Source: an uncultured Oscillospiraceae bacterium
GTDB taxonomy: Bacteria > Bacillota > Clostridia > Oscillospirales > Oscillospiraceae
Assembly: GCA_947626495.1 (NCBI GenBank)
Contig: CANQSJ010000013.1
Span: 1-60,537 of the forward strand
Direction of reading: 5' to 3'
DNA: 60,537 bases
The notes beneath the pieces are model-generated. The model saw nothing but the letters and a program-made list of their open reading frames with translations. It was not told the origin of the DNA and did no database searches. This document shows, piece after piece, positions 6,908-23,739 of this stretch. Both the position numbers and the translations under genes were made by a program. Numbering within the stretch: the stretch's first letter is position 1; each line of letters starts with the position of its first letter.

Positions 6908-7402
6908 TCACAGGGGAAACAGGGCCTTTTTGATCTGGTTCACGGCGTTTTTCTCCAGCCGGGACACCTGTGCCTGGCTGATGCCGATGGCGGCGGCCAC
7001 CTCCATCTGGGTGCGGCCGTCGAAAAAGCGCATGGACAGGATGCGCTTTTCCCGCTCGTTCAGCTTGTCCACCGCCTCGGTGAGGGCGATGCGCTCCAGC
7101 CAGGCCGCGTCGGTATTCTTGCTGTCGCCGATCTGGTCCATCACCGCCACGCTCTCGCCGCCGTCGTTGTAGACCGGCTCAAACAGGCTCACCGGGTCGG
7201 ATATGGCGTCCATGGCCATGACCACGTCCCCGGCGGTGATGTCCAGCATCCTCGCCACATCCTCCACCGAGGGCTCCCGCTGGTGCCGGGCCAGGAATTC
7301 CTCCTTGGCCTGCATCACCTTGTAGGCGGTATCCCGCAGGGACCGGCTCACCCGCAGGGCGCTGTTGTCCCGCAGATACCGGCGGATCTCCCCCGATATC
7401 AT
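6908..7402 (-). CDS. sigG: RNA polymerase sigma factor SigG, 3' half (gene interrupted)
   Basis: This is the C-terminal 164 codons of the forespore-specific sigma factor. The sequence begins at the element boundary with M-I-S-G-E-I-R-R-Y-L-R-D-N, then RVSRSLRDTAYK (region 3), SLFEPVYNDGG, and the region 4 helix-turn-helix TQMEVAAAIGISQAQVSRLE that reads the -35 box. It continues exactly where the 5' half at 23672-23388 stops: the last codons there are TYGVP, and SigG has TY-x-VP-M-I-x-GEIRR. Joined through the shared 9-mer the two parts give 259 codons, against about 260 in Bacillus. A GTG at 7408 lies inside the repeat but has no ribosome site, so this half is unlikely to be translated alone. 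No frameshift or stop is present, which argues for a live, restorable gene. Confidence 0.95.
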   Translation of the reverse strand: MISGEIRRYLRDNSALRVSRSLRDTAYKVMQAKEEFLARHQREPSVEDVARMLDITAGDVVMAMDAISDPVSLFEPVYNDGGESVAVMDQIGDSKNTDAAWLERIALTEAVDKLNEREKRILSMRFFDGRTQMEVAAAIGISQAQVSRLEKNAVNQIKKALFPL

Positions 7403-7409
7403 CGGCACC
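7401..7409. repeat. Left attachment core
   Basis: ATCGGCACC; on the sigG coding strand GGTGCCGAT, covering the codons for Val-Pro and the start of Met. It is identical to 23386-23394; flanking bases differ on both sides (C before, G after here). Confidence 0.88.
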
Positions 7410-7529
7410 GTTATCTAAAGTGGAAATGGAATGCCCTATTTTCAAGGGTTTGCGGGTTTTCTCTCCCCTGTAGATCACCGTCGAACGATGACGTGTCGTA
7501 GACAAAAAAGAAAGGCGGCGACAAAAAAC

Positions 7530-8135
7530 ATGACGACTGCAAAGGCATTTCGACTGATCGTCCACTATCTGGATACCATCGAGGGTCTCAGCGACAGCCT
7601 CCACCAGGCAAAAGATGTACTCGAAGATCTGCTGTCAGACTACCCCGGCAAGAAGTGGGACGACCTCTCCATCCGCGCGGCTGTGGAAAGCTTCATAGCG
7701 GCCCACGGCAGACCACCGACGACCAAGGAACTGGACACCCTGCCCGAGCTTCCCAGCCATCGGTGCATGGAGCTGGAATTTGACATGAAAGCAGCCCAGT
7801 GGCTCCGGGAGAACTATCCCAGCAAGGACCAGCTCTGGTACAAATACCGCGACGAGGACCACACACCGGAGGAATACCGGGCCGTATTCGTAGGCGAGTA
7901 TAACCGCACACACCCCCATTCCTGTCTGGAATATAACCGCAAGCGGGACCCCCGCTATCCCTCCTGGCAGTACACCGCCAAAATGCTGGGCTGCCGCCTC
8001 TGGAGCGAGCTGATACATATGTGTGAGAAGGAACTGGACGTGCCCAAAATTCACGAGCGCAACTTCACGGTAGAATCCAGCATCCAGCTCATCTGCGGCC
8101 CATTGCATGACCAGCAGGTGTATCAGATCAGATAA
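7530..8135 (+). CDS. Hypothetical element protein
   Basis: I do not recognise this 201-residue protein. The start at 7530 is chosen because AAAGGCGG lies at suitable spacing before it. The N-terminal part (1-45) is helical. A segment around 48-75 (AAVESFIAAHGRPPTTKELD) looks like the short helix-turn-helix repeat found next to homing endonucleases (inference from pattern only). The C-terminal half is rich in charged and aromatic residues, with several Trp and Tyr, and has no signal peptide or membrane segment. It is the first gene inside the left edge and is followed by a hairpin (8151-8178) and then parB. A DNA-binding accessory role would fit, but nothing proves it. Confidence 0.6.
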   Translation: MTTAKAFRLIVHYLDTIEGLSDSLHQAKDVLEDLLSDYPGKKWDDLSIRAAVESFIAAHGRPPTTKELDTLPELPSHRCMELEFDMKAAQWLRENYPSKDQLWYKYRDEDHTPEEYRAVFVGEYNRTHPHSCLEYNRKRDPRYPSWQYTAKMLGCRLWSELIHMCEKELDVPKIHERNFTVESSIQLICGPLHDQQVYQIR

Positions 8136-8150
8136 ATAAACTGTACTTCC

Positions 8151-8178
8151 TAGCCGTCCACGTTGCCGTGGGCGGCTA
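8151..8178 (+). terminator. Hairpin between the hypothetical gene and parB
   Basis: TAGCCGTCCACG/CGTGGGCGGCTA with a TTGC loop is a 12-bp stem with one G-T pair, followed by AAATTTATAT rather than a T-run. It is probably a partial terminator or a processing site upstream of parB. Confidence 0.55.
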
Positions 8179-8203
8179 AATTTATATCTAGGAGGAATTT
8201 ACA

Positions 8204-9130
8204 ATGGCAAAATCAAGACCCAGTGCAGCGTCCCTGCTGACCTCGCTGGACGACCTGTTCACCACCCAGGCCGAGCGGGACGAAGCCAAGCTGGAACCCA
8301 TCCTCGAAATCCCGCTGGAACAAATCAGCCCCTTCCCCGGCCACCCGTTCAAGGTAAAGGCAGACGGGGACCTGGCGGCCCTCGCGGACAGCATCCGGGA
8401 GCGCGGCGTGCTTGTGCCCGCGCTGGTGCGGCCCCTGGGCGACGGCTATCAGATGGTAGCCGGCCACCGTCGCATGGCCGCCGCGGAGCTGACAGGCGCG
8501 GAGGCGCTCCCCTGTATCGTCCGCGACCTGACCGACGAGGAAGCGACCATCGTTATGGTGGACAGCAACCTTCAGCGGGAGAAGATACTGCCCAGCGAAA
8601 AGGCGTTCGCCTATAAAATGAAGCTGGACGCCATGAAGCGACAGGGCAAGCGGACCGATCTAATTTGTGCCCCAGTGGGCGAGAAGTTGACCAGCGTGGC
8701 AAAACTGAGCAAAAGCGAAGAGGACAGCGCCCGGCAGATACACCGCTATATCCGCCTGACCAGCCTCATCCCGGAGCTGCTGAAGCTGGTGGACGATGGC
8801 AAGATCGCCATGCGGCCCGCCGTGGAGCTGTCCTACCTCACCCAGCGGGAACAGGCGTCGCTCTATGAGACCATGGTGAGCGAGAACCGCACTCCCTCCA
8901 ACGCCCAAGCCGTCAAGATACGCAAATTCTCCCAGGAGGGCCGCCTGTCCCCGGAGGTCATTCTCTCCATCATACGGGAAGAAAGAGGGGAGAAGAACAA
9001 GTATTTGAGCTTCTCCAAATCCCGTGTAGCCAGCTATTTCAAGCCGGATACACCCAATGAAGTGATAGAGGACACCATCGTCAAAGCCCTGGAATACTAC
9101 CGCAGTTTACAGCGGGGGCAGGAAAGATAG
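8204..9130 (+). CDS. ParB/Spo0J-family partition protein
   Basis: This 308-residue DNA-binding protein starts at ATG 8204 after TAGGAGGAATTTACA. The ParB N-terminal CTPase domain (about 35-125) begins with IPLEQISPFPGHPFKV and contains AGHRRMAAAE, the nucleotide-binding GxRRxxA box. It is followed by the IVMVDSNLQRE helix and a helix-turn-helix (about 165-220, LSKSEEDSARQIHRYIRLTS). No ParA ATPase gene lies beside it and no parS-like repeat was noticed, which is usual for ParB-like proteins of integrative elements that may stabilise the circle or act as regulators. The following ~200 bases (9131-9333) hold only the next gene's leader. Confidence 0.88.
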   Translation: MAKSRPSAASLLTSLDDLFTTQAERDEAKLEPILEIPLEQISPFPGHPFKVKADGDLAALADSIRERGVLVPALVRPLGDGYQMVAGHRRMAAAELTGAEALPCIVRDLTDEEATIVMVDSNLQREKILPSEKAFAYKMKLDAMKRQGKRTDLICAPVGEKLTSVAKLSKSEEDSARQIHRYIRLTSLIPELLKLVDDGKIAMRPAVELSYLTQREQASLYETMVSENRTPSNAQAVKIRKFSQEGRLSPEVILSIIREERGEKNKYLSFSKSRVASYFKPDTPNEVIEDTIVKALEYYRSLQRGQER

Positions 9131-9333
9131 GCAAAAGCGAAAAAGAAAACGCCTTACTCACAAGGGCGCACCATACCCATTGGCCCGTGACAGTTTTGCC
9201 GCCGCGCTCCCCCTCCCCACACCCCACCCCTGTTTACTGCCTGTACTACCCGAAAAAAGAAAACTTCCGGTGATTCGCACATTTGCAGTTATTCTCCATA
9301 CGCCCTACAATGGAGCAAAAGGAGGGTATGAAC

Positions 9334-9687
9334 ATGAACGAGATCGGCTACACCATGGTGAACGGCTATCGCATCCCCAACCTTCTCCCCCACCAAGAGC
9401 CGGAGATCCACCTGGGAAAATACGCCCTGCTGCGCCGGAGGTTTCTCATGCACCACCGGCCAGGGACATTCACCAATCTGCTGACATCCGGCGGTCTGAA
9501 TCCGCACCTGCTGCAGGTGGAACAGGATGCCCGCGCCAGGATGGAACGACTCACCGCCGAGATGGCCCGCTCTCAAGGCGTCACGGAGGAACTGAAAGCA
9601 GCGAACCAAATGCGCTGGGTGGGGCTCATGAACAACATCCGTAACGCCGCCGAGGAAATTGTTTTGAACGAACTCATCTACGTCTGA
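9334..9687 (+). CDS. TnpV-like transposon protein
   Basis: The protein has 117 residues and starts MNEIGYTMVNGYRIPNL, the recognisable N-terminus of TnpV proteins in Tn4451-type elements of Clostridia. In those elements it has been compared to excisionases. The ATG at 9334 stands 8 bases after GGAGGG; the ATG at 9328 is too close. The middle is basic (KYALLRRRFLMHHRP) and the C-terminal half is a long amphipathic helix (MERLTAEMARSQ). It may be the directionality factor that drives excision of the element, but the tiny ORFs beside the recombinase (21545-21804) are rival candidates. A hairpin without a T-run (9692-9731) follows. Confidence 0.8.
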   Translation: MNEIGYTMVNGYRIPNLLPHQEPEIHLGKYALLRRRFLMHHRPGTFTNLLTSGGLNPHLLQVEQDARARMERLTAEMARSQGVTEELKAANQMRWVGLMNNIRNAAEEIVLNELIYV

Positions 9688-9691
9688 ACCG

Positions 9692-9731
9692 CAAAGCCGG
9701 GAACGGGCTCAAACCCGCTCCCGGCTTTGCA
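9692..9731 (+). terminator. Long hairpin after tnpV
   Basis: GCAAAGCCGGGA arms pair with TCCCGGCTTTGC, with a further inner CGGG/CCCG pairing. No T-run follows, so it is a likely 3'-end stabiliser or weak terminator. Confidence 0.6.
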
Positions 9732-9777
9732 TATGGCCGCAGGAAACACAAAAGCCCATAAAGTTGCACAGTTCCCC

Positions 9778-9806
9778 TTGCAAAGTGTTATCATATATGG
9801 TAACAT
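9778..9806 (+). promoter_or_regulatory. Promoter with overlapping dyad operator for the HipA-like gene
   Basis: TTGCAA (9778-9783) and TAACAT (9801-9806) are 17 bp apart. The dyad TGTTATC-6-GGTAACA (9786-9805) covers the spacer and -10 box, the position expected for self-repression by the XRE domain of the gene that starts at 9838. Confidence 0.65.
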
Positions 9807-9837
9807 ATCAATCAGACCAGAGATATGAGGGAGCACC

Positions 9838-11211
9838 ATGCGCAGACAGGAGATCATCGCGCAGCTTGTGGCGGCGCGGCTGGAAAAGGGCATATCGCAG
9901 GCGGAGCTGGCCCGGATGATCGGCACCCAGCGGTCCAGCATCTGCCGGCTGGAGAGCGGCGGGCAGAACCTGACATTGGATATGGTCCTGAAGATCGCCG
10001 CCGCCCTTGGCAAGACGGTATCGCTGTCCCTAGAGGAGCAGGAAGAAATGGCATCAAGCGTTTACAGCCTCCGCATCTACGACACGGAGCTCATGAGATT
10101 TACCCTGGAAAAGCGCGGCCTGGAGGGTCTGGTGGCCGAGGTCTTGTCTGTCAACGAGGAAGCCCGCCATCTGCTCCCGCTGGACATGGCCTGCACCGGC
10201 GAGGGCGTCGTCAAGTGGCTGGGCCGGCGCGTGATTCCCAAGAACCGGGCCTTCGTGGACGAGATACTAAAAACGCTGGGGCTGAGCCAGAACGACACGA
10301 AAGGCATCATCGACGTGTGCAAGGGGCTATCCCTCAACGACAGCTATTGGGTCGTGCCGGACGGCTTTGAGGGGAAGTTTGCCGACTACAACCTCTATGA
10401 GAACCGCTTTTCCGAGATGCTGGCGCTGGTGGCCTATACCGGCGCGGGTCAGAGCCGGGAGGCGTTCACCACCTCCCCGGAGCTGACCACAAACGGTATG
10501 CTGCCCAAGGCGTGGCGCTTCATCGAAAACGACGGCATCTATCTCTATAAGGGCGGCTCCAGCGGCGCACACAACGCCGGGCGGGAACCCTACTGCGAAT
10601 ACTATGCCTCCCAGATCGCCCAGACCATGCGGCTGAACGCGGTCCACTACGACCTGGAGAACTGGAAGGGCATCACAGCTTCCAAATGCGCGTTGTTCAC
10701 CGACGTGGATACGTCCTATATCCCCATCGGCAGTCTTGTGAAATCCGGCGGTATCCAAGGGTGCCTGGAATACTTTGACGCCCTTGGCCCGGCGTTTGGA
10801 GAGCAGCTCCGCAGTATGCTGGTCTTTGACGCGCTCATTTACAACGAGGACCGGCACCTCGGAAACTTCGGCGTCCTGCGGGACAACCACACTGGCAGGA
10901 TCATCGCTCCTGCGCCCATCTTCGATAACGGCTTGTCCCTGCTGTGCTACGTCGGCCGGGAGGAGATCGAGGATTTTGAGAAGCTGAAGGAATACGCCGG
11001 GACGCGAATGAATCCATACCGGCTGTCCTACGAGGAGGTATGCGCCGCCGTGATGGGTGCGAAGCAGAAGCAGCAGCTTCGCCGGATGATCGGCTTCACC
11101 TTCCAACGCCATCCCAGCATCAACCTGCCGGAAGAGCATCTGCGGGCGCTGGAGCAGCTGTTGGAACTGCGTGTCCGGCAGCTTCTGGCAATCCCCACCA
11201 GAGGGAAATAA
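9838..11211 (+). CDS. XRE-HipA fusion, Ser/Thr kinase toxin-like protein
   Basis: The protein has 457 residues. An N-terminal XRE helix-turn-helix (about 3-62, ISQAELARMIGTQRSSICRL) is joined to a HipA-like kinase fold. In the C-terminal lobe N336-E-D338-R-H340-L-G-N343 matches the HipA catalytic motif NxDRHxxN, and IFDNG (D363) matches the metal-binding motif. HipA kinases phosphorylate tRNA synthetases or other targets and halt growth. HipB, usually a separate small gene, is here covalently attached, so repressor and kinase are one chain. A dyad over its promoter fits autoregulation. The region 62-230 does not resemble classic HipA N-lobes. A terminator follows at 11230-11262. The kinase assignment rests on motifs; the target is unknown. 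Confidence 0.8.
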   Translation: MRRQEIIAQLVAARLEKGISQAELARMIGTQRSSICRLESGGQNLTLDMVLKIAAALGKTVSLSLEEQEEMASSVYSLRIYDTELMRFTLEKRGLEGLVAEVLSVNEEARHLLPLDMACTGEGVVKWLGRRVIPKNRAFVDEILKTLGLSQNDTKGIIDVCKGLSLNDSYWVVPDGFEGKFADYNLYENRFSEMLALVAYTGAGQSREAFTTSPELTTNGMLPKAWRFIENDGIYLYKGGSSGAHNAGREPYCEYYASQIAQTMRLNAVHYDLENWKGITASKCALFTDVDTSYIPIGSLVKSGGIQGCLEYFDALGPAFGEQLRSMLVFDALIYNEDRHLGNFGVLRDNHTGRIIAPAPIFDNGLSLLCYVGREEIEDFEKLKEYAGTRMNPYRLSYEEVCAAVMGAKQKQQLRRMIGFTFQRHPSINLPEEHLRALEQLLELRVRQLLAIPTRGK

Positions 11212-11229
11212 CTCAGGGGAAAACACGAA

Positions 11230-11262
11230 AAGCAGCTTGCTTGAACGCAGGCTGCTTTTTTG
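11230..11262 (+). terminator. Terminator after the HipA-like gene
   Basis: AGCAGCTTGC/GCAGGCTGCT is a 10-bp stem with a 6-base loop followed by six T. Confidence 0.88.
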
Positions 11263-11338
11263 TATTTCTCTTTCAGGCAGTGGTCCCTCAAAGGGGCTGT
11301 CATACCGTGCAATCAAATGCGATATACCCGCAAGCATC

Positions 11339-11384
11339 GTGTTTGTACTCCCACAAACACATTTTTACAGGGGCGAGCCCCTGT
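11339..11384 (+). other. Candidate transfer origin (oriT)
   Basis: Two perfect 8-bp inverted repeats lie back to back just before mobC: GTGTTTGT-6-ACAAACAC (11339-11360) and ACAGGGGC-GA-GCCCCTGT (11367-11384). Paired hairpins next to a mobC gene are typical of nic regions in mobilizable elements. There is no direct evidence for nicking. Confidence 0.6.
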
Positions 11385-11421
11385 GACCCCACATCAATCG
11401 ACCGAAAAAGGAGGCACTTTT

Positions 11422-11799
11422 ATGAGAAGCAGAAACATCCGGCTCCAGGTCTGGGTGAACGAAAAGGAGCTTGCAATGCTGGACAGAAAGGCCCAGCGAA
11501 GCTGCCTTACGCGGGCGGCCTATATCCGTCAGCTCATCAGAGGCTATATCCCCCGGGACGCTCCGCCGCCGGACTACTACGCCATGATGAAGCAACTATA
11601 CCGCATCGGCAACACCCTCAACCAAATAGCGCAGAAAGCCCATGTGCTGAATGTGATAGACGTGCAACGGTATGACGCCGGCGTCCGCCAATTCGAGGAG
11701 GCGGTCAGGGCTATCACCAAAGCCACGATCCTGCCCAGGAAGACGAGCGAAGAAGACGCCCCGGCTAATCTGCCAGGACCCGGTCACAGAACGCCTTGA
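11422..11799 (+). CDS. mobC: MobC-like relaxosome accessory protein
   Basis: The protein has 125 residues. It starts at ATG 11422 after AAGGAGG. The N-terminal ribbon-helix-helix (about 4-45: RLQVWVNEKELAMLD, then RAAYIRQLIRG) is followed by the MobC box LYRIGNTLNQIAQKAH (about 58-73) and a helical tail. MobC binds oriT and helps the relaxase nick DNA. No relaxase gene follows; instead mobC runs into the 3' end of the antiparallel hepT gene and overlaps it by 35 bases. The last residues (PANLPGPGHRTP) are encoded in that overlap and look unlike MobC, so the original gene end may have been cut off where the toxin-antitoxin/defence block was inserted. Confidence 0.85.
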   Translation: MRSRNIRLQVWVNEKELAMLDRKAQRSCLTRAAYIRQLIRGYIPRDAPPPDYYAMMKQLYRIGNTLNQIAQKAHVLNVIDVQRYDAGVRQFEEAVRAITKATILPRKTSEEDAPANLPGPGHRTP

Positions 11800-12112
11800 G
11801 GAGAGGAATATCCTGCTCGATCGTCTCCCATGTGGTCTTCACACTGATGCTGCCATAAGCGTGTGCCATCACATTGCGCATCCCGCGTATCTCATCCCAC
11901 GGCATTTCCCTGTGCGCCGCCCGGAACTCTGGGCTCAGATGGCCGCCCAGCTCCCCAATCTGCAGGATGCACATCGCACAGCTGTTTCGATAGTCCTTGT
12001 CGGCTTTGAACGCCTCAAAGCTGTTTCCGAATCTTTCATTCGCCTTTTCAATGTCCTCACAGTAGGAAATGATATGCCGGAGGATCGATCTGTCACGCTC
12101 ACTCGTGGGCAT
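11765..12112 (-). CDS. hepT: HepT-like ribonuclease toxin (HEPN family)
   Basis: This 115-residue all-helical protein (DUF86) has the HEPN ribonuclease motif R79-x4-H84-x-Y86 (RNVMAHAY). It is preceded by the family signature around CILQIGELGGHLS and the PWDEIRGMRN segment. In characterised pairs HepT is a tRNA-cutting toxin that MntA inactivates by adding AMP groups to the tyrosine of this motif. Its start (ATG 12112, GGAGGAGG upstream) lies inside the end of mntA, so the two are translationally coupled. Its 3' end overlaps mobC on the opposite strand. Confidence 0.9.
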   Translation of the reverse strand: MPTSERDRSILRHIISYCEDIEKANERFGNSFEAFKADKDYRNSCAMCILQIGELGGHLSPEFRAAHREMPWDEIRGMRNVMAHAYGSISVKTTWETIEQDIPLLKAFCDRVLAD

Positions 12113-12401
12113 AGAGAAGCACCTCCTCCGGTCGGATATGAGCAAGGAATTCTGCGTCCAAACTGTCGGAGGTGAGAAGATCCACTTTCCTGCCCAAACG
12201 CTCCTCCAAGGCAAGGTGGAGGCCTGACAAGGCAAACAGGCCGCGTATCTTGCCCTTGTCGATCCGAAGGTCTATGTCGCTGTCAGCCGCAGCATCTCCG
12301 CGGGCAAACGAGCCGAAAAGGAATATCCGTTCGGCGCCATACTGTTTTCCCAAGTCTGCCACAGTTCTCTGTATGTCGGCGATCTGAGGGGTCTGAGTCA
12401 T
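12099..12401 (-). CDS. mntA: MntA-like nucleotidyltransferase antitoxin
   Basis: This 100-residue minimal nucleotidyltransferase shows G30-S-x10-D42-x-D44 (GSFARGDAAADSDID), the metal- and ATP-binding signature. MntA adds AMP to the HepT active-site tyrosine. The start is ATG 12401 with GGAAGGAGGG upstream. It is the first gene of the pair and overlaps hepT by 14 bases. A promoter TTGAGT-17-TATAAT (12432-12460, minus strand) lies 31 bases upstream, divergent from the promoter of the restriction-modification genes. Confidence 0.9.
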   Translation of the reverse strand: MTQTPQIADIQRTVADLGKQYGAERIFLFGSFARGDAAADSDIDLRIDKGKIRGLFALSGLHLALEERLGRKVDLLTSDSLDAEFLAHIRPEEVLLYAHE

Positions 12402-12431
12402 CGTTCTCCCTCCTTCCCTGTCTTGTGATTC

Positions 12432-12460
12432 ATTATATCCTACCGGGTGGCAAAACTCAA
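12432..12460 (-). promoter_or_regulatory. Promoter of mntA-hepT
   Basis: On the minus strand TTGAGT (12460-12455) and TATAAT (12437-12432) are 17 bp apart, 31 bases before the mntA start. Confidence 0.75.
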
Positions 12461-12511
12461 CACGTTTCTTTTGGGGCTGGACACTTCGGTCCGACAACCA
12501 ACAAAAACAGT

Positions 12512-12540
12512 TTGTGAGAGGAATGTGTCTGTGGTATAAT
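12512..12540 (+). promoter_or_regulatory. Promoter of the type III restriction-modification operon
   Basis: TTGTGA (12512-12517) and TATAAT (12535-12540) are separated by 17 bp. It reads toward mod with a leader of about 110 bases, and is arranged back to back with the mntA-hepT promoter. Confidence 0.7.
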
Positions 12541-12654
12541 GATGGTAAAATTGCTATTCTGCTCATCCCAGTACGGATGAAATCAGTTCGCCCAGCATAT
12601 CAACTTGAAGTAGGATTATTCCGCAAGAAACACCAATGAACGAGGTACATCACA

Positions 12655-14796
12655 ATGGCGGCGATAAATGACTTGATCAATCAAATAGAAAATGTGGAGC
12701 TGCGGGAGCGGATACAGAAAGAAGTGGACAAGCTCTCCAAGCAGAAAAAGTTCGGACTCGTTTTTGAAGAGCATTTGCCCGAATGTACGCCGCTATACGA
12801 TGTTCCCGTGCGCCGGGGCTCAAAAGTCGCACGAAAGCACGGCGAGGTCAACGAGATATACGAGGTACTGAAGCTGGAGGGCGATAACGCCACCTGTCTA
12901 AGAAGAGGCGAGACAGATGCCGTTACGATCGCCGTGGATGAGCTAGTTACCATAGCGGAATTTGGCGAGGCCATCTATCCATGTCTCAAGCCTATAGACA
13001 CGGTCTGCAACGCGCCGGACAGCGACCTTTGGCACACCCTGATCGAAGCGGACAACTATCACGCTCTACAGCTTTTGGAATACCTTTATGCAGGGAAAGT
13101 TGACTGCATCTATATCGACCCTCCATATAATACTGGCGCCAAGGATTGGAAGTACAACAATAACTACGTGGACGGCAGTGACACCTACCGTCACAGCAAA
13201 TGGCTTTCTATGATGCAAAAGAGGCTTAGGATTGCCAAACGACTTCTCAATCCAAAAAGGTCATTTTTGGTTATTACAATTGATGAAAAAGAATATCTAC
13301 ATCTTGGCTGCCTATTGGAAGAGATGTTTCCTGATGCGCGCATACAAATGGTAGACAGTGTAATCAACAGAAAAGGTGTCTCTCATAAAGGAAAAAAAGG
13401 AGAATCGGAAAGAGAAGAAATTACACAGTTCTCACGTGTATCTGAATACTTGTTTTTTGTAATGATGGGAAGGTCATCAATCCAAAAAAGTATTTGTAAC
13501 ATGTTGGATACACAGGTTACTGATGCAACCATTGATACTGTGCCAGATAGTGTTCAATGGCTTTCTATGTTAAGGCGTGGTGCAGCATCACGGAGAGCTG
13601 ATAAAGCAAAGCATTTTTATCCAATTTTTGTGAATCCACAGACTGCAACTATTACAAAAGTTGGAGATCCTATTCCTTTAAATCAGGATCGTAATACGGT
13701 TGTTGTTCCTGATGGCAGTGTTGCTGTCTGGCCTATGCGTACTAACGGCAGCGAAGGACGTTGGCAACTTAAGAAAGAAACCTTTGAAAAAGCGTTATCG
13801 GATGGAACCGCAAAACTAGGAAGCTACAACAAAAAGAAAGATCGCTGGGCAATTAACTACCTGAATGAAGGGACGCTAGAGGAAATCGAAAAAGGCTCTA
13901 TTATTATAACCGGAAAAGATGAAAAAGGCGCCCTTCTCCTGAAGCGCATATCAGAAAAGTTGATTGAGCCAAAATCAGTATGGAATCAAACATCTCATAA
14001 CGCAAGTGAATATGGAACAACACTCCTAAATGGTATTATTGGCAAGCGGTTTGAGTATCCAAAATCCTTGTACGCTGTCGAAGATGTATTAAGAATGTGC
14101 CTTGGTGATAACAAGCATGCTCTTATCGTTGATTTCTTTGCAGGTAGCGGCACAACACTCCATGCCGTCAATCTTCTCAACTCAGAAGACAATGGACACC
14201 GCCGATGCATTCTGGTGACAAATAATGAGGTGTCTGCGGATGAAGCAGAGGCTCTCACGGAGCAGGGGCAACATCCTGGTGACGAAGAATGGGAAAATCT
14301 GGGCATCGCTCGGTATGTCACCTGGCCCCGCACCGTCTGCTCCATAGAGGGGCATGATGTCAACGGCGAACCTTTGAAGGGCAATTATCTGGGCAGCGGT
14401 CTGCCTATGGCAGACGGTTTTAAAGCAAATGCCACCTATTTCAAGCTGGGCTTCCTGGACAAGAACGCCGTGGCGCTTGGCAAGCAGTTCAAGGAAATGT
14501 TGCCAACGTTATGGATGAAAGCTGGAGCGATAGGAAAATGCCCTGTACTGGATGGTGACATAATTCCCAAGGTGTTGTTGCTACCCAATAATCGCTTTGC
14601 CGTGCTGACAGATGAGACTGCCTTTTCCGAACTGGAAAGAGTGCTTGCCGAACACCCCGAGATCGAGACCGTGTATATCATCACCGATTACGAAGCCGGG
14701 TACTGCACCATGGCAAAGAACTTGCATGTCAGGCATACATATCAACTCTATCGGGATTATCTGGACCATTTCCGGGTCAATGTAGCGAGGGATTGA
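12655..14796 (+). CDS. mod: Type III restriction-modification system, DNA methyltransferase (Mod)
   Basis: The protein has 713 residues and is a beta-class adenine methyltransferase by motif order: motif IV D155-P-P-Y158 (DPPYNTG) comes first, then a target-recognition region, then motif I D493-F-F-A-G-S-G499. It modifies one strand of an asymmetric site and gives Res its specificity. The recognition part (about residues 180-480; bases 13,200-14,100) is visibly AT-richer than the gene ends and lies between conserved blocks, the pattern left when recognition domains are swapped. No simple-sequence tract that would phase-vary the gene was seen. ATG 12655 follows GAGGT; the stop is 2 bases before the res start. 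Confidence 0.95.
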   Translation: MAAINDLINQIENVELRERIQKEVDKLSKQKKFGLVFEEHLPECTPLYDVPVRRGSKVARKHGEVNEIYEVLKLEGDNATCLRRGETDAVTIAVDELVTIAEFGEAIYPCLKPIDTVCNAPDSDLWHTLIEADNYHALQLLEYLYAGKVDCIYIDPPYNTGAKDWKYNNNYVDGSDTYRHSKWLSMMQKRLRIAKRLLNPKRSFLVITIDEKEYLHLGCLLEEMFPDARIQMVDSVINRKGVSHKGKKGESEREEITQFSRVSEYLFFVMMGRSSIQKSICNMLDTQVTDATIDTVPDSVQWLSMLRRGAASRRADKAKHFYPIFVNPQTATITKVGDPIPLNQDRNTVVVPDGSVAVWPMRTNGSEGRWQLKKETFEKALSDGTAKLGSYNKKKDRWAINYLNEGTLEEIEKGSIIITGKDEKGALLLKRISEKLIEPKSVWNQTSHNASEYGTTLLNGIIGKRFEYPKSLYAVEDVLRMCLGDNKHALIVDFFAGSGTTLHAVNLLNSEDNGHRRCILVTNNEVSADEAEALTEQGQHPGDEEWENLGIARYVTWPRTVCSIEGHDVNGEPLKGNYLGSGLPMADGFKANATYFKLGFLDKNAVALGKQFKEMLPTLWMKAGAIGKCPVLDGDIIPKVLLLPNNRFAVLTDETAFSELERVLAEHPEIETVYIITDYEAGYCTMAKNLHVRHTYQLYRDYLDHFRVNVARD

Positions 14797-14798
14797 AC

Positions 14799-17570: not shown

Positions 17571-17620
17571 CCAGTAGATCAAAGCCTGACTTCAGTATTG
17601 GCGAGCAGTGAGGTAATTCC

Positions 17621-20581
17621 ATGTATGAGGAAGAAATAGAAAGGATATTGGATGCTTCGCAAAAGAACGCGCTTACTTTTTTCGTCGGCGCAGGCGTATC
17701 AGCCTTGTCTGGAGCACCGGCCTGGAATGATTTAATTAATGCAATTTGTGATGCATTAGGCCGCAAGAAGAAAAGCGAGTACTCTTCCGATGAATACTTG
17801 CGGATTCCACAAATGTACTATTATTCCCTGGGAGATAATCACAATACATACTATAAATTTATTGAAAAACAATTGAATTCTTCTAAATTAGTCCCGAATT
17901 CAATTCATCGTGAGATGCTCAACCTAAATCCATCTTCATTTATCACGACCAACTTTGACAGTCTGCTTGAGGACGCCGCTACTCAGTATTGTCAGAGTTT
18001 CAAGGTGATCGCCCGGGATGAAGATGTCCCACGTATATTTGGTGACAGATTCATTCTCAAATTACATGGTGATTTTCAGAACGATAACTTTGTGCTCAAA
18101 GAAGAAGACTATCTCAACTACAGCGAAAACTTTAAATTGATGGAGACATTAGCAAAATCTATCTTCTCAACTAATACAGTTGTATTTATCGGATATAGTC
18201 TAAATGATTATAACATAAGGTTGATTCTTAACTGGGTTAAAACACTTCTTAAAGAGAACTTTAGATCGCCTATTTTTCTATATACTGGGAGTCATACTCT
18301 TTCGCCTGAAGAATTATTATATCAAAACTCAAAGGGACTCACGGTAATCGAATGCAATAAACTCAGCCCTCTCTCTGACAATTACCCCGCTAGATATCAA
18401 TCTTTTTTTGATGTGCTAAGAGCTCACTCAAAGTTCTCCGTTGAAGGCAAATCAGAAGATGAAGCATTTGAAATGCTCTACCAGCTGTTAAGGCCACTGG
18501 ATTCCTTGTCTGCGCTACGAATTGAGGATGTCTCCAAAAAGCTATACCCAAATGTTAGTATTAGCGATGGTGGGGTAATATATTTACGCGAAAAGAATAT
18601 TTTAATGAAAAAATTCTTTTCTATAAATCAGCTTTCAGATAGTGAACGTGATAGTCTTCCCAAAGATATCAAGAAACAATACCATTGCATCCTAAGCGTT
18701 TTCAAAAAAGCTAGAATAACCGATGTCATCAATAACCACAAATGGTCATGCTTTGTAACAGATGAAATACCGTTTGCTGATAAGAGTTGCATTTTATTTG
18801 ATTATAGCCTGATGTACAAATTTACAGCGAGAGAATATAAGTCTGTCAAATACAATTATAAGAAAGCTTATTATTTAACCCGTCTGAAGCAATATGACAA
18901 AGCATTCTATTTATTTTCAGATGTTGCAAAAGAATCATATAAGGCAAATAATTATTTGTTTTATTACTTAGCCGAAGCCAACTGTATAAACCTGCGCAGG
19001 ACAATGGAAAATACAAACAGGTGGTATAGATGTTACGATATGAATCAGATTAACGCTTTATCACCCAATGACTTAGAGGTTGAGAATCTGTTCAGGAGAC
19101 TGCCTGTTGAGTTTAGAAATAAATATGATAGCCTTAGAGATATTCATAGTGCATCATTACTTTACAGATATGCTTATAACGCCTTTATCGATGGCCAGAA
19201 GCTCCAACATGCAATCGAGGCAAACACTATAGAATATGGGCTTACAAGCAACGAAAAGGTCACATACCGAATCAATGATTATCTACACTTCCTTCTTGGA
19301 AATGGTATTAGTGATGATATGTTTATCGAATATAAGACCGCAGTTAAATACCTCATGTCATTACTTGTGTATAAATACTCTATGCAAAAGAAGATAGCCT
19401 TAAACAGCCGAGCTCTACCTGATAATGCTGCCTGTGAAGTTTACTTTGACGAGATTGATTTCTATTGTTTTATTAGTTACTTTAGTGATAAAGAGATCAA
19501 AGCGCTCTTCAACAAGCATCATGTTATAGAGATTGAGTTCCAACATATGGAACTAGTTGAATGTGCGATTAGCAATTTAATTGAATATTATGAATTTGCA
19601 GTTAAGAAATCTGAAAACAACCTCGATGTGATTGGGCTCCAGATACAAATCAAGAATTGCATCACGCTACTTCGATATGTTAGGATTTCTCAAGACTTGG
19701 TAAACAGGATTTGCACTTTTATCCTGTCACACGAGTTTAGAGAAATACATATTGATGATAAGATTATGTTTCTTGTATATCAATTAGAGCGCAAAAACAT
19801 GTTTAGTGAGACCACCTCTAGAATTGTTGAAGATACTCTGATCTCTTATATTGACAAACACATTGCAGCATTGAAGGATGGGGGAGCGTTTGATCTGCTT
19901 TCTACGACCACCAACATCAATTATTTCAGTCTGGTTCATTTCATATATCCCACAGGGAGCCATCGTGTATCACGTAAATTATCTATGAGAATATCTAAAA
20001 TCATATCCGACGATATATCGCAACTGTATCCGCATATAGAACAACATTATTATTTATATGTATCCAAATACCAAATGAAGAAAATAATCTCTTGGGCCAA
20101 CAAGAAATTACTTGAAAGCTTCAACTTTGATTTATTCGTTTTGCTAGTGGAGTGTGATGCCCATATATCCACTTTGTTAGTGGATCGCCTCAAGTTATTT
20201 CTCAGAAACAAAATTTCTGTTGTCCAAAGCAATCCATCAAATAGCAATGCAATCGTTTTTCCTTCCAGAAGGCCCTATGAAGAACTAGTTCAAGTGGGAT
20301 ATTGGTGTTTAATTAATGTACTCAAATCAAACGACTTCAAGGATTTTCTTGGTATTAGTCCTGAATTTGATTTTCTGTGTGAATATACCCAGTTTGATTT
20401 TAATAAATTCGATGTTTCATGGTTGATGAACTTTCAGCCTACTGCTCTGGAGCGGATATCAAGTAATGCAGATGTAAAGGCGTGTATCCGATCAGCAATA
20501 GCCCATGAACTGACGGAACACGATTTGGAACTGAATGATAAACAAAAGCTACAAAATATCCTCATTCAGTTCTTTTGCTAA
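17621..20581 (+). CDS. SIR2-domain protein, probable anti-phage NADase
   Basis: The protein has 986 residues. The N-terminal SIR2 domain (about 10-270) shows the NAD-binding motifs G23-A-G-V-S27 (FFVGAGVSALSG), T109-T-N-F-D113 and K147-L-H149-G-D, then FIGYSLND. Catalytic Asn and His are present. The remaining ~700 residues are helical, without a second recognised domain; they are Tyr-, Lys- and Asn-rich and AT-rich in codon use, unlike the neighbours. Size and layout resemble defence-associated sirtuins (DSR type), which deplete NAD when they sense phage proteins through the long C-terminal part. That role is inferred from architecture and from its place behind a type III restriction system. 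A terminator follows at 20683. Confidence 0.85.
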   Translation: MYEEEIERILDASQKNALTFFVGAGVSALSGAPAWNDLINAICDALGRKKKSEYSSDEYLRIPQMYYYSLGDNHNTYYKFIEKQLNSSKLVPNSIHREMLNLNPSSFITTNFDSLLEDAATQYCQSFKVIARDEDVPRIFGDRFILKLHGDFQNDNFVLKEEDYLNYSENFKLMETLAKSIFSTNTVVFIGYSLNDYNIRLILNWVKTLLKENFRSPIFLYTGSHTLSPEELLYQNSKGLTVIECNKLSPLSDNYPARYQSFFDVLRAHSKFSVEGKSEDEAFEMLYQLLRPLDSLSALRIEDVSKKLYPNVSISDGGVIYLREKNILMKKFFSINQLSDSERDSLPKDIKKQYHCILSVFKKARITDVINNHKWSCFVTDEIPFADKSCILFDYSLMYKFTAREYKSVKYNYKKAYYLTRLKQYDKAFYLFSDVAKESYKANNYLFYYLAEANCINLRRTMENTNRWYRCYDMNQINALSPNDLEVENLFRRLPVEFRNKYDSLRDIHSASLLYRYAYNAFIDGQKLQHAIEANTIEYGLTSNEKVTYRINDYLHFLLGNGISDDMFIEYKTAVKYLMSLLVYKYSMQKKIALNSRALPDNAACEVYFDEIDFYCFISYFSDKEIKALFNKHHVIEIEFQHMELVECAISNLIEYYEFAVKKSENNLDVIGLQIQIKNCITLLRYVRISQDLVNRICTFILSHEFREIHIDDKIMFLVYQLERKNMFSETTSRIVEDTLISYIDKHIAALKDGGAFDLLSTTTNINYFSLVHFIYPTGSHRVSRKLSMRISKIISDDISQLYPHIEQHYYLYVSKYQMKKIISWANKKLLESFNFDLFVLLVECDAHISTLLVDRLKLFLRNKISVVQSNPSNSNAIVFPSRRPYEELVQVGYWCLINVLKSNDFKDFLGISPEFDFLCEYTQFDFNKFDVSWLMNFQPTALERISSNADVKACIRSAIAHELTEHDLELNDKQKLQNILIQFFC

Positions 20582-20682
20582 TTTGTCCTTTGTAATTCAT
20601 CTTTTAGAGGTCTACACGGTTATCTAACTGCAATGGTTGCACGGAATCCATTAATGGCAAAAGCAATTGATATATATTGATG

Positions 20683-20710
20683 AGCCGCTGGAATGACCCA
20701 GCGGCTTTTG
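20683..20710 (+). terminator. Terminator downstream of the SIR2 gene
   Basis: AGCCGCTGG/CCAGCGGCT is a perfect 9-bp stem with a 6-base loop followed by TTTG. It ends the mod-res-SIR2 transcript. Confidence 0.85.
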
Positions 20711-20880
20711 CTTACTCCTCATAGACATAAAAGATTTCTATAGCCGTATAACCTTTCTGGATTCCTCAACAGTTACATAGCAGAAAAGTCCCTCCCTTCT
20801 CAGAACACTCAGACTTTGACACCCAGCCGTTGAAATGTGTCGACAAATTTTTCTTGCTACTATCTAACCTTTTGACCCTT

Positions 20881-21021
20881 CCCAGCGGCTATACGGTGTA
20901 GGGAGGTTCTTCTCTGAACACATAGCCTCCGGGCTTTGAGGCATTGACATGCATCGGTAAAATGGAGATCAAAAAATTTTCCTTGGACCTTCTAATATTC
21001 TGGCCTCTCCCAGCGGCTATA
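20881..21021. repeat. Two diverged repeat units sharing CCCAGCGGCTATA
   Basis: CCCAGCGGCTATA occurs at 20881 and 21009, 128 bases apart. Each copy is preceded by an A/T-rich run (AAATTTTT or AAAATTTT) followed by about 30 pyrimidine-rich bases. The preceding SIR2 terminator carries the same CCCAGCGGCT core in its 3' arm. Confidence 0.6.
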
Positions 21022-21490
21022 TAGTGAGAAGGAAATCCCTCGGTTGAAAACCTAAATTGTGAACAATTTGTAAATTCTACGGAAGTAAGGGTTGTAAACC
21101 CGGCTCTAACTTAGGTAGATAGCAGAGGGACATCCTTCGCCCCGCCGGAGGCGCGAACCGTGCGGGGCTGCCAGACAACTGAATAGCCCATTCATCAGAC
21201 ACATTCCCATTGTTATTGCGATGAGCATGAGCCACTTCAGCGGCCGCGCCATGACCTGCCCCGGCAGAGAGCGACTGACGGCCCGCTGAGAGCGCCGGGC
21301 GGCACCCGGCGCGGCGATGACCGGCAATGGGGACAATGATACTCCCGTCCAGCCACAGTCGGCGGCTCTCTGCGCATGGCAAGCCCAGACCCGTCTCAGG
21401 CAATGGGGGCGGCCGCGTGAGAACCACGCGGGGGTGAGACGCCCGTGGAGCCGGCAAGCCGCCGGCCGTCCGGTGAATGTTCCTATAACC

Positions 21491-21522
21491 CCCATGAAAG
21501 CCCGCTTCCGGGCTTTCATGGG
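21491..21522. other. Perfect 14-bp hairpin before the tiny ORFs
   Basis: CCCATGAAAGCCCG and CGGGCTTTCATGGG flank a CTTC loop. The structure stops 9 bases before AAGGAGG of the 25-codon ORF and has no T-run, so a regulatory leader structure is more likely than a terminator. Confidence 0.7.
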
Positions 21523-21544
21523 ACCCAGGAAGGAGGCGCGGCAC

Positions 21545-21622
21545 ATGAAAACGCCGCCCTTACTAAAAAACACCTTCCGTGGCTATGATTTCACCAGCAG
21601 TCCCTATCCTTGCCGCTTGTGA
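21545..21622 (+). CDS. Tiny ORF (25 residues) with strong ribosome site
   Basis: ATG 21545 stands 8 bases after AAGGAGG and encodes 25 residues (MKTPPLLKNTFRGYDF...). I do not recognise the peptide. It follows the 14-bp hairpin, and its stop lies 8 bases before the next small ORF, which lacks a good site of its own; it may therefore be a leader peptide that couples translation of that ORF. It could also be a fragment of a longer decayed gene. Confidence 0.5.
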   Translation: MKTPPLLKNTFRGYDFTSSPYPCRL

Positions 21623-21630
21623 GGCCCGCC

Positions 21631-21804
21631 ATGGAAGTCAGCAGATTCATAAACGAACAGCCCGTCAGCGCGATCCCTCCCATGAAGGTCGCCAATGAGG
21701 GCGTCATCCAACTCATCCGCGAGGTGCAGTCCCGGGCGGTCCGGGCCCAGCCGCAGCCGCCCAAAGACGAGCCCAAACAGGAAACATCTCCCATAGCAGG
21801 TTAA
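21631..21804 (+). CDS. Small protein (57 residues) upstream of the recombinase
   Basis: It starts MEVSRFINEQPVSAIPPM; a helix is likely around 18-38 (KVANEGVIQLIREVQSRAV), and the tail is rich in Pro, Gln and Glu. I do not recognise the family. The ribosome site is weak (GTGAGG), so coupling to the 25-codon ORF is probable. It sits 111 bases before the recombinase gene on the same strand. Recombination directionality factors of serine integrases are often small unrelated proteins in this position, so it is a candidate; there is no direct evidence. Confidence 0.5.
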   Translation: MEVSRFINEQPVSAIPPMKVANEGVIQLIREVQSRAVRAQPQPPKDEPKQETSPIAG

Positions 21805-21842
21805 ATCTTCCTTTCCCTCCACCATTTACCTGCTTTGCACAT

Positions 21843-21871
21843 TTGCATTTGGCATTTGCCGGAATTATACT
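21843..21871 (+). promoter_or_regulatory. Promoter of the serine recombinase gene
   Basis: TTGCAT (21843-21848) and TATACT (21866-21871) are 17 bp apart. The region repeats CATTTG three times (about 21839-21858), a possible operator. The boxes are of the vegetative SigA type, not of sporulation sigma type. Confidence 0.7.
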
Positions 21872-21915
21872 GGGTATGAACTTGGTGGAGTTCGATCATC
21901 GAGGAAAGGAGTGTT

Positions 21916-23334
21916 ATGAACAGCAATAACCCCAACGAGGAAAAGATCTGCGCCCTGTACATCCGTGTGTCCACCGACGCCCAGGCGGAGGAGGGCTACA
22001 GCATCCCCGCCCAGACCGAGAAGCTGGAGGCCTACTGCGCCGTAAAGGGCTGGAAGCGGTTCGACCTCTATGTGGACGGCGGCTACAGCGGCAGCAACCT
22101 GAACCGGCCGGAGATCCAGCGGCTCATCGCCGACGCCCAGGCGGGCAGGCTGGCAAACGTAGTGGTCTATAAGCTGGACCGTCTGTCCCGAAGCCAGAAG
22201 GACACCCTCTATCTCATCGAGGACGTGTTTCTGCCCAACGAGGTGGGCTTCGTGTCCATCAACGAGAACTTTGACACCACCACCCCCTTTGGCCGGGCCA
22301 TGATCGGCATCCTCTCCGTTTTCGCCCAACTGGAGCGGGAGAACATCTACCTCCGCACCCGGATGGGGATGCTGGAGAGGGTTAAGCAGGGTCTCTGGCG
22401 GGGCGGCGGCAACGTCCCTTTCGGCTACGACTACGACCAGCAGCAGGGCATTCTGGTGCCCAACCAGGATGCGGAGACCGTCCGCAAGATATACGATCTC
22501 TACATCCAGGGCTACTCCACGAACAAGATCGCCGGTATCCTGGGACTGCCGCATGAGAGGCTCGTGTCGAACGTGCTGGGGCGCCGGTGCTATCTGGGCT
22601 TGGTGACCTACAAGGGCCAGGAATATCCCGGCTGCCACGAGGCCATCCTCAGCGAGGAGACCTATGAACTGGCCGTGCGGAAGATGCGCGAGCGCTCCGT
22701 TGCCCACGCCCCCGTCAAGGCATCCCACCTGCTCACCGGGATCATCTACTGCGGCTGCTGCGGCGGACGGCTCCGGTATCAGAAGTGGGGCAAGGCGGGC
22801 TTCAAGCTGGTCTGCTATTCCCACGACCCGGCCAAGGCCCACATGGTCAGGGACCCGGACTGCGCCTATGAGCCGGTCTGGTCCCACCAGATCGAGAGCA
22901 TCGTCCTGGGCGACCTGTTCAACATCTCCGCCGATATGCGGTCCGGCAAGGAAGCTGACGCCTTCACGGTCATCGACCCGGTGGCGGAGCTGAAAAACCG
23001 CATCCGACAGACGGAGAACAAGCTGGAGCGGCTCTACACCCTGTACGCCGAGGGAACGGACGACACGCTCCTCAAGGTCATCGAGGACACAAAGCAGGCT
23101 CTGGCCTCTCTCCGGGCCCAGTATGAGCAGGAGAAGGAGGACCAGGCCAGCGCCCGGCGGCTGGCCCTCATCTGGGACCAGGTGGCCGGCATCGCGGAGA
23201 CCTGGCCCTACCTGACCGACCTGCAGAAGCAGACCATGATCCGGGACTGCGTGAGCCGGATCGTCATCACCAACGAAAGGGTGCAGATATTTTACACCTT
23301 CAAGGAAAGCGGCGGACAGCAAAAAAGCGCCTGA
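21916..23334 (+). CDS. Large serine recombinase of the element
   Basis: The protein has 472 residues. The N-terminal resolvase domain (about 10-155) holds the nucleophile S19 in LYIRVSTDAQAEEGYS and the arginine cluster in YKLDRLSRSQKD. The recombinase domain follows (about 165-265, NVPFGYDYD and NKIAGILGL). A zinc ribbon (CGCCGGRLRY then two further Cys near 290-315) and a coiled coil (about 350-410, NRIRQTENKLERLYTLY) complete it. This is the architecture and size of SpoIVCA, which excises skin from sigK. It lies 51 bases from the right attachment core and reads toward it. Start ATG 21916 follows AAAGGAG. It should cut ATCGGCACC sites in sigG and on the circle; whether excision is tied to sporulation is unknown. 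Confidence 0.95.
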   Translation: MNSNNPNEEKICALYIRVSTDAQAEEGYSIPAQTEKLEAYCAVKGWKRFDLYVDGGYSGSNLNRPEIQRLIADAQAGRLANVVVYKLDRLSRSQKDTLYLIEDVFLPNEVGFVSINENFDTTTPFGRAMIGILSVFAQLERENIYLRTRMGMLERVKQGLWRGGGNVPFGYDYDQQQGILVPNQDAETVRKIYDLYIQGYSTNKIAGILGLPHERLVSNVLGRRCYLGLVTYKGQEYPGCHEAILSEETYELAVRKMRERSVAHAPVKASHLLTGIIYCGCCGGRLRYQKWGKAGFKLVCYSHDPAKAHMVRDPDCAYEPVWSHQIESIVLGDLFNISADMRSGKEADAFTVIDPVAELKNRIRQTENKLERLYTLYAEGTDDTLLKVIEDTKQALASLRAQYEQEKEDQASARRLALIWDQVAGIAETWPYLTDLQKQTMIRDCVSRIVITNERVQIFYTFKESGGQQKSA

Positions 23335-23385
23335 TACCAAGGGTTTCATGGCTTTTGCTCCACACTTTTTCCACCTAAACCATCG

Positions 23386-23394
23386 ATCGGCACC
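23386..23394. repeat. Right attachment core
   Basis: ATCGGCACC, identical to 7401-7409. Beyond it (23395 onward) the sigG 5' half begins; inside it the sigG frame runs 13 more codons into element sequence before a TGA at 23346. Confidence 0.88.
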
Positions 23395-23672
23395 CCGTAG
23401 GTGGAAAATTTCACGTCCTGGGTGATGTCAAAATTGTCGATGGCCTTGATCAGGCCGATGCACCCCACCTGGAACAGGTCGTCCATGTTCTCGCCCCGGC
23501 CGGAAAACTTCTGGATCACACTGAGCACCAGCCGCAGATTTCCGCTGATCAGCTCCTCCCGGGCCTGCATGTCCCCGGCCTTGGCCCGGACCAGCAGCTG
23601 CCGCGTCTCCTCGCTTTTCAGCACCTTCAGCCTGGCAGTATTCACGCCGCAGATCTCCACTTTGCATTGCAA
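23388..23672 (-). CDS. sigG: RNA polymerase sigma factor SigG, 5' half (gene interrupted)
   Basis: The first 95 codons of SigG. A TTG start at 23672 is chosen because GGGAGGGG lies 8 bases upstream and because the product then opens M-Q-C-K-V-E-I-C-G-V, matching the SigG N-terminus (KVEICGV) that distinguishes it from SigF and SigB. Region 2 is complete: GNLRLVLSVIQKF, then GRGENMDDLFQVGCIGLIKAI and KFSTYGVP. In the present state the frame reads past the junction into the element and stops at 23346, giving a 108-residue truncated product without regions 3 and 4. A SigF/SigG-type promoter lies upstream at 23710-23739. The other half is at 6908-7402. Confidence 0.95.
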
Positions 23673-23709: not shown

Positions 23710-23739
23710 TAGTGTTGCCAGCGGCGGCGGATTTGATTC
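23710..23739 (-). promoter_or_regulatory. SigF/SigG-type promoter of sigG
   Basis: On the minus strand the -10 region GGCAACACTA (23719-23710) fits the forespore consensus GGNNANANTR at every fixed position. GAATC (23739-23735) stands 15 bp upstream and matches 4 of 5 of a G-H-A-T-R box. It lies 37 bases before the TTG start. The spacing and identity fit SigF control of sigG. Confidence 0.7.

Follow-up and report, generated by a model that had tools for sequence, protein, structure and literature searches.

In the 60,537-nucleotide contig CANQSJ010000013.1 of an uncultured Oscillospiraceae bacterium (assembly GCA_947626495.1), hereafter called the window, the gene encoding the forespore sigma factor SigG (sigG) is split after codon 93/94 by an intervening element of 15,976 bp (7410-23385), which carries a large serine recombinase. 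The features that define this interrupted gene are the following.

6908..7409, minus strand: C-terminal half of sigG, from residue 94, with the stop codon at 6908; an open frame of 166 residues whose best match is to SigG NF006071
7401..7409: left copy of the core repeat, ATCGGCACC, which reads GGTGCCGAT on the strand of sigG
21631..21804, plus strand: 57-residue candidate recombination directionality factor, member of a small-protein family found upstream of the recombinase
21916..23334, plus strand: large serine recombinase of 472 residues, its 3' end facing the sigG N-terminal half; Pfam Resolvase 1.6e-39, Recombinase, Zn_ribbon_recom
23386..23394: right copy of the core repeat, ATCGGCACC
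23386..23672, minus strand: N-terminal half of sigG, with a TTG start at 23672
23710..23719, minus strand: GGCAACACTA, forespore-type -10 of the sigG promoter, of a motif class shared with intact sigG genes

The two halves are recognized separately by the SigG profile TIGR02850, whose positions 91-253 match at 6923-7411 (C-terminal part) and positions 2-94 at 23385-23663 (N-terminal part), both on the minus strand. When the flanks are joined in silico at the 9-bp repeat, a single uninterrupted frame of 259 residues is obtained, identified as SigG by NF006071 (419.5 bits for a cut-off of 372); against TIGR02850 it reaches 416 bits, below a cut-off of 457 that none of 60 relatives attains. In the nearest intact relative (locus L063 of genome G021), the TTG start is also found and the residues across the joint, TYGVPMISGEI, are identical. 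A first-pass annotation of this DNA had proposed both the split at identical 9-bp repeats and the 259-codon frame, which are borne out here, and had placed the element at 7401..23394, limits that are corrected to those given above. The same annotation had considered that a second intact sigG or an assembly artefact could undermine its claim. No second copy was found among the matches over the 62 contigs of the window genome (G000; 2.14 Mb, 89.8% complete), and this possibility was rejected, as was an assembly artefact, which is unlikely because 11 other genomes carry the identical joint.

Across 19 pairs of sigG halves (13 on one contig and six from two contigs of one genome), a core common to both sides is located at identical sigG coordinates in every pair, within nucleotides 279-293, and it is because the cores share these coordinates that the joint is in frame. 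The core length ranges from 3 to 12 nt, the 3-nt core (G020, with a different recombinase) and the 4-nt core (L131) being weak alone. In the window, the symmetry of the attP arms is moderate (13 matches out of 24; 245 of 20,000 shuffles equally good). As in known gene-intervening elements, the insertion lies inside the coding sequence of a sporulation gene, the core is short, joining leaves an intact frame and a large serine recombinase is carried by the element. Use of the target gene in the terminal mother cell, which is true of the skin and gin elements and forms no formal part of the definition, is not shared, the gene being sigG by family.

The recombinase at the right edge, pointed out in the first-pass annotation, does possess resolvase, recombinase and zinc-ribbon domains, with Y15, R17, S19 and other residues invariant in an alignment of 11 sequences; the excision of the element attributed to it was not seen. 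An alignment of six recombinases, each of them located at sigG, was used to search named genomes; it retrieved 199 relatives, and the analysis was restricted to the 80 best. In 52 of these 80 loci, the recombinase 3' end lies at most 100 nt from a sigG half, the 36 C-terminal halves being all codirectional with it and the 16 N-terminal halves all antiparallel, while a half is located farther off in nine loci (L137 among them) and is absent from 19. None of the 52 matched half stretches contains an in-frame stop, and random insertion was rejected because the site is fixed and the recombinase is oriented towards the half in every one of the 52 near cases. Going by record titles, a half is carried by hosts such as Flavonifractor, Pseudoflavonifractor, Agathobaculum, Butyricicoccus, Lachnospiraceae, Defluviitaleaceae and further Oscillospiraceae. 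At locus L137 (genome G037), the listed recombinase is located outside the split, and the contig of the N-terminal half contains a distant, partial match to a recombinase (32% over residues 11-209). At L144 and L152, the recombinase 3' end abuts a gene that we take, from its sequence, to be RqcH-like, and a second target besides sigG hence probably exists.

Viral contigs are also concerned. A recombinase lies beside a sigG-like half in L199 and L202-L204, the last three being near-alike, which suggests that the sigG halves of some viral contigs are host sequence at the ends of prophages. In L203 (11390-11890), recombinase and sigG-like C-terminal half stand at the contig end, behind genes for PhoH, ribonucleotide reductase, dUTPase and a methyltransferase; the portion of this contig that was covered has nucleotide-metabolism genes of a kind usual in phages. 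L203 is possibly a phage integrating in sigG, or its sigma-like piece may be a phage-borne sigma gene, because it also matches a phage sigma-factor family; phage-borne sigG homologues are already in print (PMC10294663).

In the genus of Flavonifractor sp. AGMB03687 (G229; Flavonifractor/Pseudoflavonifractor), the gene is split in 11 of 20 species genomes, with a recombinase beside sigG in all 11 and in none of the nine intact ones. On the tree of C-terminal halves, this distribution corresponds to one change of state, a figure as low being obtained in none of 500 shuffles (branch support 93/83). Among 10 genomes, recombinase and sigG distances are correlated (r 0.81; 0 of 5,000 permutations) and their third-position means are nearly equal (0.265 and 0.274, respectively). 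The median omega of the C-terminal half is 0.048 in split genomes (54 pairs) versus 0.120 in intact ones (36 pairs; pooled 0.118), these figures carrying no significance test and deriving from pairs that share branches and are non-independent, those with synonymous divergence (dS) outside 0.05-1.2 having been dropped. Such a low omega would not be expected for a gene that is never used. As judged from these sequences, the split has been inherited over the long term in Flavonifractor relatives, with purifying selection on the gene. The cargo differs within this group: in seven of the 11 split genomes, the element measures ~6.4 kb and carries a gene set for aldehyde oxidoreductase and alcohol dehydrogenase, in one (L130) it measures ~3.1 kb and carries the dehydrogenase only, and three species, described below as inverted, have no such cargo. 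In L101 (2447-7021), what we presume to be aldehyde oxidoreductase, ferredoxin, MoaD/ThiF and alcohol dehydrogenase genes lie inside sigG, a metabolic cargo within a spore gene that is encountered in several Flavonifractor species.

Directly upstream of the recombinase is encoded a protein of ~40-60 residues with the pattern MxVxRYINGKxV...N. With an iterated profile (seeded from ten sequences, three iterations), it was found in 69 of 77 evaluable genome loci and in five of 80 viral loci, a single-pass profile retrieving 53 loci at the same threshold; as controls, one of 5,213 decoy open reading frames (ORFs) and none of 557 reversed ones matched. No Pfam or PHROGs family was found for the window copy or for a Flavonifractor copy, and one relative gave two sub-threshold Pfam matches. 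The small protein goes with the recombinase, because it is present also where the sigG half is absent, and its position fits that of a recombination directionality factor.

A -10 motif type is shared by sigG and this small gene in part of the loci. The motif GGNNANANTR, which we take to be a sigma-F type -10 and for which sigG itself served as control, precedes sigG in 50 of the 53 rows with an intact gene and in 28 of the 41 labelled split, the latter including two contig-edge loci (L053, L054) and several loci of the same genome; these are raw counts over an 85-nt span. Upstream of the small gene, it occurs in 30 of 73 loci, compared with rates of 3.0% in random windows and 2.6% at the starts of other ORFs, although 21 of these 30 loci come from two related groups, a kinship that inflates the count. 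The scan covered 73 of 75 starts (two were dropped for their short upstream region) with automatic start codons, at least one of which (L189) is too far upstream; 27 of the 30 motifs lie 27-35 nt from the start codon. In eight of 10 Flavonifractor-type loci, GGGCAYACTG with GTCTG 15 nt before it precedes the operon of the small gene and the recombinase, and in these loci sigG is preceded by GTATG and GGACATACTG, 14 nt apart, the -10 motif being of the same type as that of the operon. The promoters of ssp genes showed no clear motif and are not used as evidence.

In three sister species (G324, which is Pseudoflavonifractor phocaeensis An507, G329 and G337; loci L307-L309), the two halves are inverted with respect to each other. 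The order is HD hydrolase, sigG N-terminal half (reversed), MocR, a 57-residue gene, candidate factor, recombinase and sigG C-terminal half, to be compared with HD hydrolase, 57-residue gene, MocR and sigG in L130 and L133. As in DNA-inversion switches, the recombination sites of these three loci stand in inverted orientation around the segment. In silico inversion between the cores (3,701, 3,710 and 3,697 bp) gives a full sigG frame in all three cases and leaves at the other end an attP-like joint that is roughly palindromic by eye; L135 and L139 are the inverted cases among the 19 core pairs. In L308 (5743-5913), the 57-residue gene follows MocR, and in the lineage with the inverted order it has become attached to the operon of the switch. 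The start of this gene lies in an inverted repeat, identified by eye, which is perfect in L135 and has one mismatch in L139.

In the genus of the window, the picture is a different one. Among 35 genomes, 13 are interrupted, 18 uninterrupted at the site and four undetermined (G005, G016, G017 and G024). Twelve of the 13 interruptions (G000 and 11 others) lie at the window site, some of them judged from one half only, and that of G020 is due to a different recombinase; the 18 uninterrupted genes comprise 17 of full length and that of G023, which starts at profile position 36. The intact junctions expected by the first-pass annotation in related genomes do therefore exist in congeners, the nearest (G021) included. 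Split and intact genes are interleaved, with six changes on a tree of 25 genomes, and omega of the C-terminal half is alike in both (pooled, 0.19 for split and 0.22 for intact). We conclude that the evidence favours a younger, mobile element using sigG as attachment site for the window copy, because its recombinase differs less between genomes than sigG and no forespore-type motif precedes its candidate factor. In an even sample of the family, the C-terminal half was matched in 122 of 150 genomes, and a bare C-terminal half was located beside or near a recombinase in nine (G000, G060, G061, G079, G103, G108, G223, G229 and G234). Four further genomes that appeared split by open-frame length (G035, G097, G242 and G188) were rejected as contig edges. 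Genome G318 has two sigG copies (loci L113 on contig C49 and L116 on contig C39), of which one is intact and the second a bare C-terminal half beside a homologue of the 234-residue protein of the window element, with no match to the window recombinase within 20 kb. Genome G006 has, besides a split copy, a further C-terminal piece (L045, contig C93) that begins at residue 112 and ends at the contig end, possibly from a second strain.

The rest of the window element encodes mobilization, toxin-antitoxin and defence functions, as listed here.

7431..8135, plus strand: 234-residue protein at the left end, no Pfam match; homologues beside the C-terminal half in other genomes of the genus
8204..9130, plus strand: ParB-like protein (Pfam ParB_N 8.4e-17)
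9283..9687, plus strand: TnpV-like protein (Pfam TnpV 1.5e-39)
9838..11211, plus strand: helix-turn-helix protein (weak HipA_C match)
11410..11799, plus strand: NikA-like mobilization protein, start uncertain (Pfam NikA-like 1.3e-12)
11765..12235, minus strand: HepT-like ribonuclease of toxin-antitoxin type (Pfam HepT-like 6.4e-19)
12099..12566, minus strand: MNT-like nucleotidyltransferase, partner of HepT (Pfam NTP_transf_2, Polbeta)
12655..14796, plus strand: type III DNA methyltransferase (PADLOC MTase_III 5.6e-153)
14793..17570, plus strand: type III restriction subunit (Pfam ResIII 3.8e-14; PADLOC REase_III 1.2e-9)
17621..20581, plus strand: SIR2-domain protein of 986 residues, defence-like (Pfam SIR2_2 5.4e-22; ThsA-like 1.1e-27)
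21333..21448, plus strand: pemK RNA motif (RF02913; 63 bits, gathering cut-off 34.8), upstream of the small gene and the recombinase

Of the integrase and mobilization genes that are combined in integrative and mobilizable elements, the recombinase and the NikA-like protein are present, and no relaxase domain was found among the nine element proteins scanned with Pfam. The G+C content falls to 0.35-0.38 at 18-21 kb, compared with 0.54-0.68 in flanking windows. Between the SIR2 gene and the recombinase module, ~500 bp (20581-21100) have no clear gene and contain, by eye, two CCCAGCGGCTATA boxes and a partial third. The pemK RNA motif is also present in L120 (6240-6355) and absent from eight other loci scanned alongside. 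Just outside the element, beside rpe and sigG, lies a XerA-like tyrosine recombinase gene (5076-5921), below its family cut-off.

From these features, a mechanism can be proposed. The recombinase would join the attP site of the element to sigG within the conserved codons of region 2 (core near nucleotides 279-293) and so split the gene, and, together with its small partner protein, it would recombine the two hybrid sites to give back an intact sigG. In the window, this would be a mobile 16-kb defence and mobilization island blocking sigma-G until its departure, while in Flavonifractor relatives the same module would now be an inherited switch. Sigma-F in the forespore would read sigG and, in most species scanned, the operon of the factor and the recombinase through the same promoter type; the element would then leave in the forespore, and the recombinase alone could re-insert it after germination. 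In the three inverted species, DNA would invert instead of leaving, and, as an inversion loses no DNA, this would remove the main objection to a rearrangement in the forespore. The proposal of the first-pass annotation, a new sporulation rearrangement or switch, is now better supported, since in relatives the split has been inherited over the long term under purifying selection and promoter motifs of forespore type are present, and it is to these relatives that developmental regulation would apply; for the window itself, the mobile element is favoured. We consider it likely that a group of large serine recombinases uses sigG as its main attachment site, and extend this judgement to the full explanation with excision and, in relatives, a switch. 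That sigG is a true reversible developmental switch in gut bacteria, with a sigma-F-driven factor, excision or, in the P. phocaeensis lineage, a 3.7-kb inversion, and renewed splitting after germination, we regard as evenly balanced.

Several observations weigh against the proposed explanation. Of the 80 recombinase loci, 19 are without any sigG half, and the share of loci at sigG is skewed upwards because all queries sit at sigG and only the best 80 of 199 relatives were kept. The forespore-type motif was not found upstream of the small gene in the window, L119 or L120, nor in the inverted loci L135 and L139 (the two scanned, L307 lying outside the scan); it is moreover not confined to sigG, six of the 30 positive loci having no sigG half (L159, L174, L175, L186, L195 and the viral L201). 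All three inverted assemblies are in the split orientation, so that both orientations of a switch are not represented. In the window genus, the third-position differences of the recombinase (0.05-0.12) are smaller than those of sigG (0.15-0.26; six pairs, four genomes), and the recombinase is therefore younger than its hosts. The circle junctions that the first-pass annotation had looked to in reads were sought in assemblies, and no excised junction of the window type was found in 35 genus genomes or in viral contigs. By published description, Flavonifractor porci does not form spores, and F. plautii varies in this respect (PMC12050419). Lastly, an element excised in the forespore would be lost from the germ line if it did not re-integrate.

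Among other explanations, the one that survives best is that sigG is a selfish attachment site only: a conserved gene used by elements, perhaps phages, whose lysogens cease sporulating, with intact copies arising through strain replacement or rare random loss and with no developmental timing. The interleaved split and intact genes of the window genus, its recombinase less diverged than sigG, the mobile and defensive cargo, the viral contigs with a recombinase beside a sigG-like half (with phage-type genes in L203) and the nearly equal omega values in the window genus, as expected of recent insertions, all speak for it. What it leaves unexplained are the 11 species with one common split and an omega of 0.048, the shared forespore-type motif and the inverted arrangement in three species, and we hold it to be rather unlikely as the whole account. 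It is very improbable that the lineages concerned abandoned sporulation and that sigG is undergoing recent pseudogenization, as descriptions of cultured relatives as non-spore-forming or variable might suggest (PMC12050419): the halves examined contain no stop codon, the split Flavonifractor C-terminal half has an omega below that of intact genes, and sporulation genes are retained. SpoIVB is present in all 11 split Flavonifractor genomes and in 12 of the 13 that are split in the window genus (G007 and G025 just under the family cut-off, the one miss being G029, 75% complete), and genes for small acid-soluble spore proteins (SASP) in all eight genomes tested, of which six are split (G060 as judged from its C-terminal half alone). 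Equally improbable are halves translated separately, as a two-piece sigma factor or with another function and no need of rearrangement, since although both are open and conserved and the first codon of the C-terminal half could serve as a start (GTG in the window and ATG in several relatives), the cut falls within conserved region 2 at a position set by the recombinase core, and identical sigG coordinates of the core in 19 of 19 pairs are not required of two separate proteins.

The split sigG has its closest known counterparts among elements in sporulation genes. The sigma factor gene sigK acts in the mother cell, which dies, whereas the forespore, where sigG is active, passes its chromosome on. 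The genes interrupted by skin and gin belong to the mother cell, in which a loss of DNA is harmless because this cell dies; since sigG acts in the forespore, a switch there must be reversible or alter the inherited genome. The skin element of Bacillus subtilis (SpoIVCA) is likewise a large serine recombinase element in a sporulation sigma gene, its core probably lying in the homologous region-2 part of sigK, but the gene and the compartment are different. The target of vfbin is spoVFB. In the Clostridioides difficile skin element (sigK; recombinase CD1231, directionality factor CD1234), the recombinase lies immediately upstream of the 3' part of the sigma gene, as in the loci facing the C-terminal half, a second protein sets the direction, and excision rebuilds the gene; CD1234 differs in being under sigma-E and SpoIIID control (PMC5025042). 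Like the window element, the gin element in gerE of Bacillus cereus ATCC10987 is not a phage, carries restriction-modification genes and has a repeat of 9 bp, and its recombinase GirC works with a partner, GirX, reminiscent of the recombinase and candidate factor described here; it differs in that gerE works in the mother cell and that gin has three recombinases (PMC5595907). SP-beta in spsM (PMC4191935) and vfbin (PMC5595907) are also excisable elements in sporulation genes, although not in a forespore sigma factor, SP-beta being an active prophage. The RecV-type phase-variation switches of C. difficile share reversible inversion by a site-specific recombinase (PMC7446863, PMC5386303), but the RecV switch described there is located upstream of an operon, while an inversion at sigG would reunite the two parts of one coding sequence. 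By analogy, the sigG system would work like C. difficile skin and gin, differing in gene, compartment and, in three species, geometry.

The first-pass annotation knew of no interruption of sigG, and in the titles, abstracts and passages of open papers (subscription papers and preprints lying outside this search) no report of an interrupted or invertible sigG was found either. The one phrase match concerned an engineered disruption and not a natural split (PMC8102284), and, by term count, 'sigma factor' does not occur in the main text of a recombinase catalogue (PMC10083194).

If the proposed switch is real, a sporulating cell would be rearranging its DNA in a programmed way within the germ-line compartment, and a sigma factor of sporulation would be invertible. 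The recombinases described here form a group with a predictable target, and the inverted variant makes the question open to PCR in a cultured isolate. Mobile elements could then control the decision to finish the spore in gut commensals, which might, speculatively, help to explain why some Oscillospiraceae with sporulation genes are described as non-spore-forming.

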